Part shown: positions 1,851 to 49,989 of the stretch, piece after piece
How positions within the stretch are numbered: the first letter of the stretch is position 1
Layout of the letters: each line of letters opens with the position of its first letter
Assembly (NCBI GenBank): GCA_023053685.1
Contig: JALIGW010000002.1
Span: 43,965,778-44,029,777 of the forward strand
Reading direction: 5' to 3'
Source of the DNA: Diadophis punctatus similis
Lineage: Eukaryota > Chordata > Lepidosauria > Squamata > Dipsadidae
Length of the DNA: 64,000 bases
The notes under the pieces: generated by a model
Database searches by the model: none
Seen by the model: the letters and a program-made list of their open reading frames with translations, nothing else
Told to the model about the DNA's origin: nothing
Position numbers and translations under genes: made by a program

Positions 1851-2246
1851 TGTTGGATACAACAGCGTAAATTCCCTTCCAGGTGCTCTTCCCCCCCCAA
1901 AAAAGATTTACTGTATCCAATGTAGTCTAGACAAGACAGTAAAATGTATATTGATTTAATTTTACAATATCTGTGCGATTTACCTCTTGTGAAATAGCAA
2001 CATTTTGCATGTTAAGCAAATTATGTCATGTGTATCAATTTAAGTCATTTGCATAATGACATCATTATTCCAATAGCATGTTGATGTATTTTAGCTAATT
2101 GTGTATTTTTATATTGAACAAACAGACATAACAGCTTCCTTCCACAAAATACTTTGTTAAAATGAGGTACCTGTGTTCATAATTCAGCAGCATTTGTTCA
2201 GCAAAAAGAGAAAATATGTATCAATTAAGATGAAAAAGCAACATAC

Positions 2247-2358
2247 CTTCACTAATTTCTCCTTTGCACTGCGATAACATTATTGCCTCGGTCCATGCGA
2301 CTGGAAGATTCACATACCGGTACTTCCCACAACCTAATACGTTGAGACCCAATCGTCT
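2247..2358 (-). CDS. TMEM232: TMEM232 coding exon 3
   Basis: 112 nt, entered in phase 0 after a pyrimidine-rich acceptor (…CTGGACAG) and left in phase 1 at a GTATGT donor. It encodes RRLGLNVLGCGKYRYVNLPV…WTEAIMLSQCKGEISE without stops. The conserved-looking LNVLG…VNLPVAW stretch is the best evidence that the gene is real and under selection. Confidence 0.82.
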
Positions 2359-5300
2359 CTGTCCAGAATATAAAATGGAAAGAAGCAAAAGATTATAATA
2401 CTATTTTTCCCCCAAGCTAACAACAGATTTGGGGCTGAACTAAAAACTAATGAAATGAGCACATTCGGAAGACATTCAGAAGAAATTCTTCAGACTTTGC
2501 ACAAGTCTAGTGCCTCTGAGCTAATCATTAAAGCAGCCTGACATTTTTCAGCCTTCTGCTTGGAATACATGTTGCTGATGCTGCTTAAGGAATGCATAAG
2601 ACTCTTAAAGCAGTGGCATCTTTTGTGACATAATGTGACATAAACAGAAACATAATGAATGGCATTGCAAAATATAGCATTGTCAAAGTATGCAAAACTC
2701 TACTTAAAGATAACATTTAAAATGAACTGCTGACAAGAAAATACAAGGCCTAGCCGAAATAGCAATGTTTTCATCCCTCAGGTTAAGACTTAAATAAGAA
2801 GATAAATACTGAGTGTAATTATATTGTTAACCATCAATTGAAGTGCCTTGCAACAAAGAGCAATTAATTACAAGCTCTGCATTCCAGCAATGACTTGCAC
2901 TGAGCCAGTTTGTGAAGAGGGCACATGTGGTGCCCAAAACCAATCCAATGAAACATCTTCAGGCATTTGGGAGTAAGCTTTTAAAACATAAATCTGTCAG
3001 AGTTGGAGTAACTCTGCCTTATTTTTATGCTAGATTGCCATAACAATATTTAACTTAACTATAAAGGGAAACTCTGTCAGGCCATTTCTTTTTCCTCATC
3101 TCCTGGAACAAGAGGCAATAATTAAAAACTAAGATGTCCTTTCCTCACCCCCAAGATTGTTTTCATGAAATTATTTCAACGTGACTATGTTTAAAAAGAA
3201 AACAAGTATTTCAAGCATTTTCAGCCTGGCAATTTCTTATAAATTTTAGATGTTCAAATACAAATTATTTTAACATTGTCCTTTCTGCACATCTTTGTAT
3301 GAATAACTTTAAAAAGAAAATGAATGTGATGTAGTAAAAAGTATTTTCATTAATGCTCAGGTCTTAAACAGCACCATAAACACTTAGGTTCAAAAGATGG
3401 TCTTTATAAATGACCTTTTATAAATCCTATATATACAAACCTTGCATCTAACAAGCATTTTTTTAGCCAGTTCTATGAATGCTTCCTTTCTTTCAGTTTC
3501 TGTGGCATTATTGAAATTCTCAATGAATTCTTCAGTAAGTTCAAATGGATTTCTAGAAAGATACACCCAAGGGAATATCAATTTAATTGGATAAATTAAT
3601 TAAAATTAATTAAATAAATAAATACCTAGAATTAACCTTTCAAGCATGAAAGAACATAAAGCTTATTTAATTTTAAAAGAGCCATTGTGTAATGTCAGTC
3701 TTTAATATATACAAAGACTTTCTGATACTGTCTCACTTTTACAACAAATTTTATAGCATCTACAGACTTGACCATTCTGTCCTGGTAAGATTAGAAATAT
3801 ATGTGCGTGTGACAGGCCACTATTTTATCTAGATGGAAATATTGGTTTTCTATCCTGAAAGTAATCTAGCTTAAGAAGTTGCTGTTCAATATGTTCATTA
3901 GCTTTGGCACTGATATTGCCGAGGCTTTGGTCTAGATGGAGGTTACCAAATTCCTAGCTGGTACATACCTGTGCATCTTTACCACTTCTACCTTAAGATA
4001 GTCCTTGTTTACTAACATCAAGTGGGACCAGAATTACTGTTACTAAGTGATGCAATTGAAAAGCCCAGTATCACATGACTGTGCCATTCAGTGATGGCAG
4101 TTTTGCATGTCCAGTTGGTAAACAAATCCCACATCATCATTAAGTTCAATCTCACATGGTCGCATTTGCAACCTCCTGCCAGCTTTGCCAGTGATTTTGC
4201 TTGCAGGAAGATAGCAAAGGAGGTCACAAATTCCGATCTGTGTGGCACTACAATGTCATAATTGCAATCCAGGTGCTGAACAATCACATGCAGAGACGCT
4301 GCAATGGCTGGATCTTTGAGTACAGATCATAAGTACCCCTCGTTCAGCACCATTGTAAGTTTGAATGATCACTGAATAAATAAGTAATTATCGATTGAAT
4401 GGTCACTAAACAAATGGTTATTAAGTACTAGGAAAACAAGAGCAAGTTGTTTGCCTTCTGAAGAGTGGGTCTTTCAGTACAGGGTGTCTATTATCGTCTC
4501 TCCCTTGTACTTGACATCTTTCTACTGGAACAGATATAGTATATGCTGAGGGTACTGGTTTAAGCTCTCTCGGTGGAACTGTGAAATTCTGTCTGCCTAC
4601 AGTTAGCAGCTCAGTTGGAATTGCTCAAAATAGTGTTTGATTTGGAGGTCACGAAAACAATGTGATCATCAACAGGTTCTTCCTGTTACAGGTATTTCCA
4701 CTGCTATTGAAAATCTTAAATCTTTGCCTGTTTTCCAAAGAAAAGAGAATTCACTAATTCTGCAAGTACCAACTGCAATTAATTTCAAATCTCTTCCAGG
4801 ATAAAAACTAAGTGAGTAGCTGGAGCCAGAAAAGTACAAAGGTATGCCAAGTGAAGGAAGAAGCATTGTTGATTTCACAAAATAAAATAAAAAAGAAATA
4901 TAAAGCCAGATTCTTATATGAAGTGGACATTTTGGGTGGGACAAATTAGTAAGAAGTGGATTGATTATGCAATAGCAATAGCAATAGCACTTACTTATAT
5001 ACCGCTTCATAGTGCTTTACAGCCCTCTCTAAGCGGTTTGCAGAGTTCAGCATATTGCCCCCAACAATCTGGGTCCTCATTTTACCCACCTCGAAAGGAT
5101 GGAAGGCTGAGTCAACCTTGAGCCTGGTGGGATTTGAACAGCTGAACTGCTGAACTAGCAGTTCAGATTGCAGTGCTGCTTTTAACCACTGCACCACCAC
5201 AGGCTCATGCAAAAGGATTAATTGGTAAGTCCACTGTGAACCTAGATATTTAGGCCTAGACTTTTTTAAAAAACATACATCTATTAATGATATTCCTGTT

Positions 5301-12543: not shown

Positions 12544-13550
12544 TACCGTATTTTTCGGAGTATAAGATGCACCTTTTTACCCCCAAAAAGAGGGTGAAAA
12601 CTTGGGTACATCTTATACACCGAATGCAGCCTCACCCACCCAGCCACCCCACCCTTTGGCCTCTGTTTTCCAGCAATTTACCTGCTTGCAGCAGAGGGAA
12701 GAGCCTGTAATGCCAAGCAAGTCGGTAGAAGCTTCCCGACCTACAGTTGATTAGGTTTGCCACCTGGGAAAATGAAAGTGAAACTAACTGCAAAGAGGCA
12801 AATAGCTGGGAGAGACATGCAGATTTTTATTTTTTGCTGAACTGGATGGAAGGGGGTAAGTGAATAACTATAAATGTCTGTAGAATGTTCAAATTATTAG
12901 ACTTATTTTTTAAAGACTGCTTTATTATTGTTCTAGAGCCAGGGGTCTCCAACCTTGGCAACTTTAAGACTTGTGGACTTCAACTCCCAGAATTCAACAG
13001 CCAGCTTTGTTAGCTTTGCTGGCTGTGGAATTCTGGGAGTTGAAGTCCACAAGTCTTAAAGTTGCCAAGGTTGGAGATCCCTGTAAATCTAGACAACTTA
13101 ACAAAATAAAGCTTTTTAAAATAAATGCTTGCTCTGAAGAGGCCCAGTGCTATTGTATCTTCTTTTAAATAATAGAGAATAATGTATACTTCCAGAAATT
13201 TTAATTAATTTTAACAGCTCTGTACAAGTATAGTATGAAATGTAACAGTGTCCTGTTTAGTATTAGAGTTTAGTTACCTTGGAGTAGATCTATTTAAATA
13301 ATTGGGAAGAGTTAGTGTGACTACATTTAAGAAAACTTTCTGGCGTAATGTACATTTCTCCAATTCTTTGCTATTTCTATGGGTCAGGTACACATGCACA
13401 GAAATACACAGCAAACAGTGTATATCATCTGTGCTTTTTGCTGTTTGGCAAATTGCTTGGAAGCAGAGGCCTTTTTTCCTTGTTTTCCTCCCCCAAAACT
13501 AAGGTGCGTCTTATACTTCGGTGCATCTTATACTCTGAAAAAATACGGTA
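12544..13550 (+). mobile_element. TA-flanked TIR transposon, copy A (1.0 kb, non-coding)
   Basis: Starts TACCGTATTTTTCGGAG and ends CTCTGAAAAAATACGGTA; the TA at each end is the probable target duplication, suggesting a Tc1/mariner-like element. No transposase frame. The interior has a subterminal repeat (TCTTATAC…) and an embedded hAT MITE at 12940-13083. The near-identical copies at 24620 and 27445 are in the opposite orientation. Confidence 0.85.
12940..13083. mobile_element. palindromic hAT MITE (family H) nested in copy A
   Basis: CAGGGGTCTCCAACCTTGGC is mirrored by GCCAAGGTTGGAGATCCCTG. The two arms (GACTTGTGGACTTCAACTCC) meet at a GCTGGCTG loop, so almost the whole element folds into one hairpin. 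TCTAGA lies on both flanks. Confidence 0.85.
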
Positions 13551-18888: not shown

Positions 18889-33579
<14,691 letters not shown>

Positions 33580-39875: not shown

Positions 39876-40276
39876 TATCGTATTTTTGGAGTATAAGACG
39901 CACCTTTTCCCCTCCTAAAAGAGGCTGAAAATTTGGGTGTGTCTTGTCCTCCGAATGTAGCTTTTTCAAAGCTTTTTTTCCAGCTCTAATGAGGTGCTAA
40001 TAATCTTCCCTGCTTGTAGGATCTTTTCATTCCTACTCCCTCTAAAGAAGTGTTTTTCCAGCCCTAAGTCTTTGTAGGCTTGTTTTCATTGCTATTCCCT
40101 CCGAAAAAGGTCTTTTCAGCCCTAACCAGGGGATAAAATAATGTGCTGAAGCTGACCAGACTAAGGACGCTAGCCAGATGAATACCCGGTAGGTAGACTT
40201 TTTCCCCTATTTTCCTCCCCAAAAACTAAGGTGCGTCTTATACTCCAGTGAGTCTTATACTCCGAAAAATACGGTA
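39876..40276 (+). mobile_element. TA-flanked TIR transposon, copy E (short subfamily)
   Basis: TATCGTATTTTTGGAGTA…CTCCGAAAAATACGGTA; interior shared with copy D, including AGACTAAGGACGCTAGCC. Confidence 0.87.
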
Positions 40277-47690: not shown

Positions 47691-48227
47691 AATAAGGATC
47701 ATTGTATTGGGCACAAGATGGCCTCTCTTTAGCCATACACCTAAATGTGTGAAGGTGGATAGGACAGGAGTTTCCAAATTGGGGCAGAGGGCAGATGAGT
47801 GGGAAACAGTCTCTGTTAGAATTTTAGAAATTTTAAGGATTTGAATGGTCCGTTTGAATGGTCTGGTTTCTTACGTATTCATATGCTGGATCTAAATCAA
47901 TATGCTTGTTTTGGTTCTTTTGAAAAGTTCTGGATGCAACTCCTCTTGTTTACAGTGGGGTAATTGCTTGTGAAATTTAGAATTTGGTCTGTGCATGGGG
48001 ATTTTCGATATACCGTATATACTCGAGTATAAGCCGAGTTTTTCAGCCCACTTTTTGGGCTGAAAAAAGCCGCCTCGGCTTATACTCGAGTCATTGAAAT
48101 TGGCCAAAGCGCGCGACCCTTAGAATTCCCCGAACGGGCTGGCGCAACCGGGCTGGGGTGTCCCCGGCGTGGGGGAACCGGTCCTTGTCTCCATGTGCTG
48201 CAGGGATCAGCGGGGAAGAGGCGCCAT

Positions 48228-48532
48228 CGCCCCCCCCAAAAAGGCATTAACTGGGAAACTAGTCCGGGCTCGGGGCGTTTTGCAAGCGGGCGAGAACCAG
48301 CCTCCGGGGCGGTGGCATGAACGAGGGCGAGGCGGAGGGTCCTCCGCGGCCGGCCCTTTGCAAGGAGATGTGCCCGGCGGGGGAGTTCTGGCGGCGGCGG
48401 CGGCGGCGGCAGAAGCGGCAGAAGCGGCTGGAGCTAGACCCGGATCGCCAGCCGGACCCTCCCCCGCTGCCTTGCGACCTCCACCCGGCGGTGCTGCTGG
48501 CCACGGTGCATCACCTGCTGGGCCGGTCGGCC
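48228..48532 (+). pseudogene. SAC3D1: captured SAC3D1 exon, copy 1 (with 5' UTR and start)
   Basis: After a 5' UTR-like stretch, ATG at 48317 opens MNEGEAEGPPRPALCKEMCP, then FWRRRRRRQ…RLELDPDRQPDPP and HPAVLLATVHHLLG. The frame then runs into the inverted sequence and stops at 48596. (CGG)n expansion has lengthened the Arg stretch. The copy forms the left arm of a foldback with copy 2. Family: SAC3/GANP-domain protein related to the mRNA-export factor GANP, linked to centrosomes and STAT5 signalling. Confidence 0.75.
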
Positions 48533-48579
48533 ACGAAGGCGCAGCGCTCAGCCGGGGAGACCTCGCTGGCTTTGGCCAC

Positions 48580-48870
48580 CGACCGGCCCAGCAGGTGATG
48601 CACTGTGGCCAGCAGCACCGCCGGGCGGAGGTCGCAAGGCGGCAGGGGAGGGTCCGGCTGGCGATCCGGGTCTAGCTCCAGCCGGTGCAGCCGCTTCTGC
48701 CGCCACCGCCGCCAGAACTCCCCCGCCGGGCACATCTCCTTGCAAAGGGCCGGCCGCGGAGGACCCTCCGCCTCGCCCTCGTTCATCCCCGGAGGCTGGT
48801 TCTCGCCCGCTTGCAAAACGCCCCGAGCCCGGACTAGTTTCCCAGTTAATGCCTTTGGGGGGGGCGATCG
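48580..48870 (-). pseudogene. SAC3D1: captured SAC3D1 exon, copy 2 (inverted)
   Basis: Exact reverse of copy 1 apart from small indels: on the minus strand it again reads 5' UTR, MNEGEAEGPPRP…EMCPAGEFW…LHRLELDPDRQPDPP…LLATVHHLLGRSVA. Together with copy 1 it makes a hairpin with about 290-bp arms and a loop near 48533-48580. The loop sequence is itself SAC3D1 in minus orientation, which extends copy 2 slightly leftward. Confidence 0.75.
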
Positions 48871-49374
48871 CGGAGGGTCCTCCGCGGCCGGCCCTTTGCA
48901 AGGAGATGTGCCCGGCGGGGGAGTTCTGGCAGCGGCGGCGGCAGAAGCAGCTGCACCGGCTGGAGCTAGACCCGGATCGCCAGCCGGACCCTCCCCCGCC
49001 GCCTTGCGACCCCCGCCCGGCGGTGCTGCTGGCCACGGTGCATCACCTGCTGGGCTGGTCGGTGGCCGAAGCCAGCGAGGTCTCCCCGGCCGAGCGCTGC
49101 GCCTTCGTGGCCGACCAGCTGCACGCAATCCAGCTGGATCTGGCTCTGCAATGCCCGCCCGCCGCGCCTTGCGCCGCCCTGCTGAAGCACGCCTTGCTTT
49201 ACCTGCTGCACGCCGGAGCCCGGCTCTGCAACCAGGCGCCCACGCGCTTCGACGCCCACCTGCACGACGGGCAGCTCCACGAGACCTTCGCCGCCCTGCG
49301 CCGCGCCTACCGCCACCCCGACGCGCATCCTGCCCAGCCGCGCTTCCAGGTGCTCTTCCTGCTCTACCACCTGG
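48871..49374 (+). pseudogene. SAC3D1: captured SAC3D1 exon, copy 3 (longest, open frame, ends at donor)
   Basis: An uninterrupted frame reads GPPRPALCKEMCPAGEFW, LHRLELDPDRQPDPP, VLLATVHHLLGWSVAEASEV, ERCAFVADQLHAIQLDLALQ, FDAHLHDGQLHETFAALRRA and FQVLFLLYHLG. It ends at CTGG|GTGAGC, a perfect 5' splice site followed by intron-like sequence. Against SAC3D1 as I know it the order is conserved, but the AVKEYSR-type motif expected between PDPP and the VLLATV block is absent, an internal deletion of roughly 20 residues. The 5' end (MNEGEAE) is lost; an upstream ATG at 48849 is in frame. Whether it is expressed, for example as an exon spliced downstream, is unknown. Confidence 0.78.
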
Positions 49375-49424
49375 GTGAGCCGCGGGGGTCGTAGTCCTGG
49401 GATTTGGGTGGGTGGGTGGGGGCA

Positions 49425-49550
49425 GTATTAATTTAATTTCATTTAAATTAATTTCATTTAATTTCATTTAAATTAATTTCATTTAATTTCATTTAAATTA
49501 ATTTCATTTAATTTCATTTAAATTAATTTCATCTAATTTCATTTAATTTA
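49425..49550. repeat. AT-rich minisatellite, 25-bp unit, about 4 copies
   Basis: Unit AATTAATTTCATTTAATTTC…; lies inside the Pack-type element right after the captured intron fragment. Confidence 0.9.
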
Positions 49551-49989
49551 ATTAAAAGTTCTTCTAAGACGCCCAATCCCGTAGGACTATTGTTTTTATT
49601 GACCCTCTTTTCCACTTACAGAGCTAGTTTACTGTTTTTCTTTGAAATAAATATTCAAAAACATTATTAGTATCTATTTTTATTTTTGAAATTTACTGGT
49701 AGCTGCTGCATTTCCCACCCTAGGCTTATACTCGAGTCAATAACTTTTCCAGTTTTTTGTGGTAAAATTAGGTGCCTCGGCTTATATTCGGGTCGGCCTA
49801 TACTCGAGTATATACGGTATGCAGGTTGTTAATTCACCATTATCTTGTCTCTTTATGTCAATGTCACACACAGACCAAAAACAGAGAACATATGAGAAAA
49901 AGAGAAGACAAATAATACCTGTACAAAGTGATTGCAGAACTTGAGAGCAGATCACAGCAGTCTTCCAGAACAGGAACCAATCACCATCA

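Follow-up and report, generated by a model that had tools for sequence, protein, structure and literature searches.

A SAC3D1-carrying TIR element at many places in one genome and its probable origin by a single capture from DNA

The element in the window and its cargo

The stretch of DNA analysed here (the window, 64,000 nucleotides) holds at 48011-49819 an element with transposon ends, between which lies a part of the gene SAC3D1. The features are listed below, where J1 and J2 are the junctions on either side of an inverted copy of the exon and types A and B are two structural types of the element.

48010-48037 (+): left terminal inverted repeat, including the putative target TA at 48011-48012; its 28 nt are 96% complementary to those at the right end
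48011-48101 (+): left arm of the transposon (91 bp), which contains a hairpin; types A and B have the same consensus here
48097-48101 (+): left capture breakpoint; AAATT common to the transposon arm and the gene
48102-48530 (+): first (forward) copy, with SAC3D1 upstream sequence, the ATG at 48317 and the start of exon 1
48522-48530 (+): junction J1, where the first copy turns into the inverted one; GCCGGTCGG (9 bp) is shared by the two source strands; found in all 40 copies of types A and B and in 2 of the 21 others
48522-48872 (-): second copy of this exon part, in inverted orientation
48870-48872 (+): junction J2, where the inverted copy gives way to the third one, with GCG in common; found in all 40 copies of types A and B and in 14 of the 21 others
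48870-49374 (+): third copy, again forward; it reaches the end of SAC3D1 exon 1 and is without the first codons
49375-49434 (+): SAC3D1 5' splice site, followed by the beginning of intron 1; GTATTAATTT holds the right capture breakpoint
49428-49553 (+): AT-rich tandem repeat with a 25-bp unit (4.9 copies of 25 bp at 49431-49553)
49435-49819 (+): right arm of the transposon; types A and B and the loci L082 and L083 have the final 192 bp (49628-49819) in common
49793-49820 (-): right terminal inverted repeat, including the putative target TA at 49818-49819

An earlier note on this DNA had described terminal inverted repeats of 28 bp with TA at the edges. An inverted-repeat comparison of the window agrees with this, as the arms are 96% complementary and a TA forms the first and the last bases of the element. 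The end motif TATACTCGAGTATAAGCC, allowing up to three mismatches, has six matches in the window where 0.03 are expected, and all six fall inside the element. A search of the window against Rfam at the gathering threshold gave no match, and the 22-base end sequence had no exact match among viral contigs. The left arm is in itself an imperfect hairpin (48021-48091), in which the end sequence is repeated in reverse (78% over 77 columns).

The interior had been described as GC-rich and as encoding a SAC3/GANP protein, and this is confirmed by the frame at 48867-49373, which matches Pfam SAC3_GANP (2.3e-20) and has human SAC3D1 as its closest solved structure (PDB, 1.4e-26); a search with the exon 1 protein against a large protein set gave no match. 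The GC content is 0.68 in the kilobase starting at 48001, and CpG observed/expected is 0.76-1.06 for 48001-49500, i.e., not depleted, vs 0-0.25 in four 250-bp windows of the flanks. Three properties go beyond the first reading, i.e., the triplication of the exon part (forward at 48102-48530, inverted at 48522-48872 and forward again at 48870-49374), the capture of sequence upstream of the ATG (about 215 bp in the window copy, 48102-48316) and the presence of the element in many copies. The insert of the window copy amounts to about 1333 bp vs 886 bp for the corresponding part of the gene. The predicted RNA fold of 48222-48872 is -711 kcal/mol compared to -336 for 20 shuffles, which is due to the inverted copies and has no bearing on transcription.

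Elsewhere in the window a related short TIR family with the ends TACCGTATTTTTCGGAGTATAAGACGCAC is found at 30614-31100 and 39876-40276, with further ends at 12544, 24620, 25594 and 27445; its layout is similar to the ends of the SAC3D1-carrying element (TACCGTAT..GAGTATAAG). The window also contains a mitochondrial carrier frame at 32977-33579 (Pfam Mito_carr), which we take to be the last exon of SLC25A46.

The parent gene and the copies across the genome

The C-terminal half of human SAC3D1 has one match in the host genome (1.78 Gb, 419 contigs), at C13:9425620-9426060 with 43% identity. On this contig, C13, SAC3D1 is an intact two-exon open gene of 342 residues, with an exon 1 of 568 nt counted from the ATG, an intron of 796 bp and an exon 2 that begins after ..CCTCAG. 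The separate intact locus foreseen in the earlier note is hence present, and the possibility that the window held the only SAC3D1 locus, with the remaining exons downstream, fails since the remaining exon is on another contig. No transposon ends (25-base end, up to four mismatches) were found around the gene in the 4.2 kb read. A tandem repeat with a unit of about 93 bp, counted by eye, lies directly downstream of SAC3D1, at about 2200-3200 of the stretch read at the parent locus (L078).

The captured source part of the gene, which is 73% GC, begins about 254 bp before the ATG, takes in the whole of exon 1 with its 5' splice site and ends 64 bp into intron 1. The exact 5' splice site that had been recognised from the window alone is corroborated by the C13 gene, which reads ..CACCTGG/GTGAGC.. 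at the same place (the slash marks the splice site), and the intron sequence, put at about 50 bp, is present over about 60 bp in the window copy (49375 to about 49434). With both the start of intron 1 and the upstream sequence in the element, the argument that a retained intron edge speaks against capture through mRNA is upheld; as the intron is present, the SAC3D1 part was taken from DNA.

At least 70 distinct places in the genome carry the element. Forty of these come from a first search, in which the best 40 of 872 first-look candidates were scored, and 30 new ones from a search with the upstream piece 48103-48233, in which the best 40 of 104 were scored. Sixty-one copies were read, namely the window copy, 39 copies with flanks and 21 of the 30 at new places, the latter only for about 1.7 kb inward from the left end. 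Taking the 40 best-scoring places per DNA search (of 872 and 104, and of 167 in the search for the second load of type B) favours long and similar copies, and the youth of the family may be overstated.

Both transposon ends are present in all 39 further copies read with flanks, and TA letters are found on both sides in 38 of them, the ends mostly reading TACCG..CGGTA; L043 is without TA on one side, and in L047 one end is degenerate. When the 100-bp flanks of 40 copies were compared, only those of L019, L028, L029 and L030 resembled another (E 1e-6). The flanks of L029 and L030 are alike over 100 bp on one side (94%) and over 21 bp on the other, and these two may stem from the duplication of a block or be separate hits within a single repeat. 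That the element carries copied host DNA around the genome, as had been proposed, is thus supported by the same ends and insert at many unrelated places, and two unrelated MITEs on either side of the gene do not account for it as both ends travel together with the insert. The earlier note further envisaged elements with the same ends that either share or lack the insert. The first kind is found at many places; the second is indicated in part by L082 and L083, which have the same right end and no SAC3D1 over the stretch read, short of their left ends.

The copies fall into several structural types. Type A comprises the window copy and 18 others, with J1 and J2 in 19 of 19 and the splice donor in 18 of 19; full copies are 1777-1918 bp long, and the 25-bp tandem repeat is probably the main cause of the length variation. 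Type B comprises 21 copies, all of which have J1 and J2 and none of which has the donor or either capture breakpoint; the upstream piece has been cut away at ATT, and the shared right arm is preceded by new sequence of about 800 bp. A third type, form 0, has four members (L065, L066, L069, and L073) that carry the capture once and without inversion, L069 and L073 with further deletions. Form 0 retains a coding stretch of 45 bp (AVKEFS..) and, in full or in part, a further stretch of 17 bp upstream, both of which are lost in the rearranged copies, together with 3 bp more relative to form 0. The form 0 copy L065 aligns with the C13 gene at 92.7% over 888 bp, across the full extent of the captured part given above. 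A further candidate for form 0, L072, was rejected, its frame being without the AVKEFS stretch and its place in the tree being with type B. In the 21 other copies, form 0 included, J1 is found in 2 and J2 in 14. The left breakpoint is present in 19 of 19 type A copies, 21 of 21 others and no type B copy, and the right breakpoint in 18 of 19, 4 of 21 (many were not read that far or have lost it) and none, respectively. Tandem arrays of a 156-bp piece of the captured exon were observed in L064 (2000-3062 in element orientation, seven further units) and in L077 (1880-2690, units inverted).

The new sequence of type B (L027 1503-2306) constitutes a second segment fused to the SAC3D1 part. When it was used as query, the best 40 of 167 candidate places were scored, some of them being known type B copies, and four other places were fetched. 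In two of these, L082 and L083, the second segment is accompanied by the same right end, and the stretch read is free of SAC3D1. The other two, L080 and L081 (97.9% alike), have the second segment without such an end in the 1.9 kb read, and their sequence runs on past the transposon boundary. On the letters compared, type B seems to have arisen by the fusion of two loads at TGCTC, the second being unrelated to SAC3D1, and L080 and L081 may be the source of the second segment.

Outside CpG sites the divergence from the own consensus is 0.38-0.90% in 17 of 19 type A copies, with L017 at 1.7% and L023, which carries an insertion, at 7.0%. For type B it is 0-0.44% in 19 of 21, with L046 at 0.57% and L047 at 0.89%. 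Judging from this near identity among the best-scoring copies that were sampled, type B must have spread recently.

Single capture and the probable course of rearrangement and spread

The relationship between gene and copies was compared site by site over 929 columns, including the flanks of the capture, with rows for the gene, four form 0 copies, three type A consensus copies and three other rearranged copies, and with no type B row; 32 columns in which a group was unresolved were set aside and 65 were without derived letters. No column has the gene and the derived copies agreeing against form 0, two have the gene and form 0 agreeing against the derived copies, and 66 have form 0 and the derived copies agreeing against the gene. 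Only 20 of these 66 lie in the well-aligned captured part, the rest being outside it or in a G/T run. At the level of these aligned letters all compared copies are shown to trace to one capture, because the left breakpoint is present in 40 of 40 non-B copies and about 20 substitutions are shared against the gene. Type B, despite the loss of both breakpoints, is tied to type A because it has the same two inversion junctions.

Against a neat order of events, the tree rooted on the gene does not unite type A, type B and the remaining rearranged copies in a single clade. Furthermore, the distance to the gene outside CpG, TpG, and CpA is larger for form 0 (7.8%) than for type A (4.2%), type B (3.7%) and the others (4.0%), which we explain by the greater age of form 0. 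The pairwise identity among L065, L066, and L069 (94-96%) fits such an age; pairs with L073 give 83%, which we read as a result of the large L073 deletion being aligned against foreign sequence.

The route by which TIR transposons of animals acquire host genes is debated, as the majority of the cases known are single-copy and preserve little of their history. Here one genome holds the history of the family, i.e., the parent gene, copies with a single capture, the inverted form and a young fused form, and capture, rearrangement, amplification and second capture can be put in order and their junctions read. We consider it very probable that the element belongs to a non-autonomous multicopy Pack-TIR family, in which a part of SAC3D1 was captured once from DNA, rearranged and spread between TA letters. 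Both the capture and the later rearrangements would have come about by microhomology-guided template switching in repair or replication, the short shared sequences being AAATT at the entry, an AT-rich stretch at the exit, and GCCGGTCGG and GCG at the points of inversion. The order would have been capture, giving form 0, followed by three deletions, by the inverted triplication that gave type A and its relatives, and by the fusion with a second load that gave type B. The whole package would have been moved by a transposase that came from elsewhere, in trans, and recognised the ends. As targets, the TA letters would fit the Tc1/mariner group, with a duplication of the TA suggested by the pattern of the ends.

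Several other explanations were considered for what is seen at the locus. Two unrelated MITEs could flank the SAC3D1 gene itself or a copy made by segmental duplication, and related short TIR elements are indeed common in the window. The intact gene with its exon 2 is on another contig, however, and the recurrence of left end, insert and right end at unrelated flanks refutes this explanation, to which we assign a practically negligible chance. Equally negligible is the chance of a retrocopy of SAC3D1 mRNA lying in a transposon by accident; it would agree with the presence of exon 1 and with exon 2 not being seen in the element, but it is refuted by the roughly 64 bp of unspliced intron 1 that follow the exon, and the roughly 254 bp captured from upstream of the ATG also speak against it.

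The inverted triplication might be thought an artefact of assembly or sequencing, as the captured part is so GC-rich (73%) and inverted copies are hard to sequence and assemble. The same two junctions nevertheless recur in every one of the 40 type A and B copies, which lie at different places, and form 0 copies exist without the inversion, which makes an artefact very improbable. It is also conceivable that the spread was not by cut-and-paste but by segmental duplication or as a replicative DNA element, the TA edges then belonging to the ends themselves. The TA could be part of the repeat (TACCG..CGGTA), and L029 and L030 share flanks. On the other hand nearly all 40 copies have flanks that are unlike each other as far as the TA itself, a pattern that would not result from duplicating larger blocks, and we hold this mode of spread to be improbable.

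A Pack-TIR family of this kind may have consequences for the host. Going by its sequence content, type A, which comprises the upstream region, the first exon and the donor, could act as a mobile first exon that splices into neighbouring genes; type B is without the donor and would therefore not splice into neighbours by means of it. It is tempting to speculate further that the family is a recently, perhaps still, active shuffler of gene fragments, in which the start of SAC3D1 has been folded, amplified and had half its load swapped with a second pack element, and that hairpin transcripts give rise to small RNAs against SAC3D1, making the family a dispersed regulator of the host gene. We regard this as unlikely as a whole; if it were true, RNA transcribed across the inverted repeat would fold into a long hairpin that matches exon 1 of SAC3D1. 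In any event the family provides a vertebrate case in which exon, promoter-side and splice-donor material is found at dozens of places, and in which chimeric transcripts and hairpin RNA can be looked for.

Comparison with known Pack-type elements

In the open-licence literature no paper was found that brings together captured gene fragments, DNA transposons and squamates or snakes, Tan et al. was the only work found under the name Pack-TIR, three papers mention Pack-TYPE elements together with vertebrates, and only work on nuclear RNA was found for SAC3D1 together with a transposon. The 15-base end sequence matched only fly work which, in the part considered, is on another subject. The earlier note had held that such captures are rarely reported in vertebrates. 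This needs correction, since 370 Pack-TIRs are described in 100 animal genomes, 81 of them vertebrate, in the part of that study considered here, on which the comparisons below are based (Tan et al., 2021; PMC8277862).

Several properties of a Pack-TIR are found in the present element, i.e., the insert lies between ends of the same transposon, it has an identifiable parent, it is not of mRNA origin, no element ends flank the parent in the 4.2 kb read, and there are multiple distinct insertion sites. As in the animal Pack-TIRs, a TIR transposon carries a host fragment with a known parent and microhomology at the breakpoints, and the copies, like the multicopy cases there, are GC-rich and far from the parent (PMC8277862). 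Among the animal Pack-TIRs TcMariner is one of the main carriers (115 of the 370; PMC8277862), a group that the TA edges here would fit. Template switching at short shared sequence has been argued for Pack-TIRs in that study, where the route of switching and then moving, proposed for multicopy cases, is termed FoSTeST (PMC8277862). Four multicopy families are described there, three in frogs and one in alligator, with examples of three and five copies (PMC8277862). The present family differs in its occurrence at no fewer than 70 places, in its several structural types and second load, and in an inverted triplication whose junctions recur in at least 40 of the 61 copies that were read. The screening filter applied there (insert 80-120% of parent length and at least 90% alike; PMC8277862) is fitted by the form 0 copy L065 and failed by the window copy (about 1333 vs 886 bp). 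As described, the filter is a screen for young unrearranged cases and not a definition, and families such as this one may therefore be missed by it.

Plant Pack-MULEs are similar in that one third are multicopy, in the origin of their fragments from other chromosomes and in being GC-rich, but they belong to the Mutator-like superfamily and the element here has TA edges (PMC8277862). The Drosophila element Ssk-FB4, of TcMariner type and with a repetitive TIR, has likewise captured an upstream region and gene sequence and then moved; it is known from three polymorphic fly loci, compared to dozens of places here, and it kept nearly the whole gene, whereas the SAC3D1 element has exon 1 only (PMC8277862). 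Vertebrate Pack-TIRs as such are therefore already known, and set against the cases in that part of the survey the present family is unusual in its scale, in the inherited inverted triplication, in the several types that exist in the same genome as the parent gene and in the second load.
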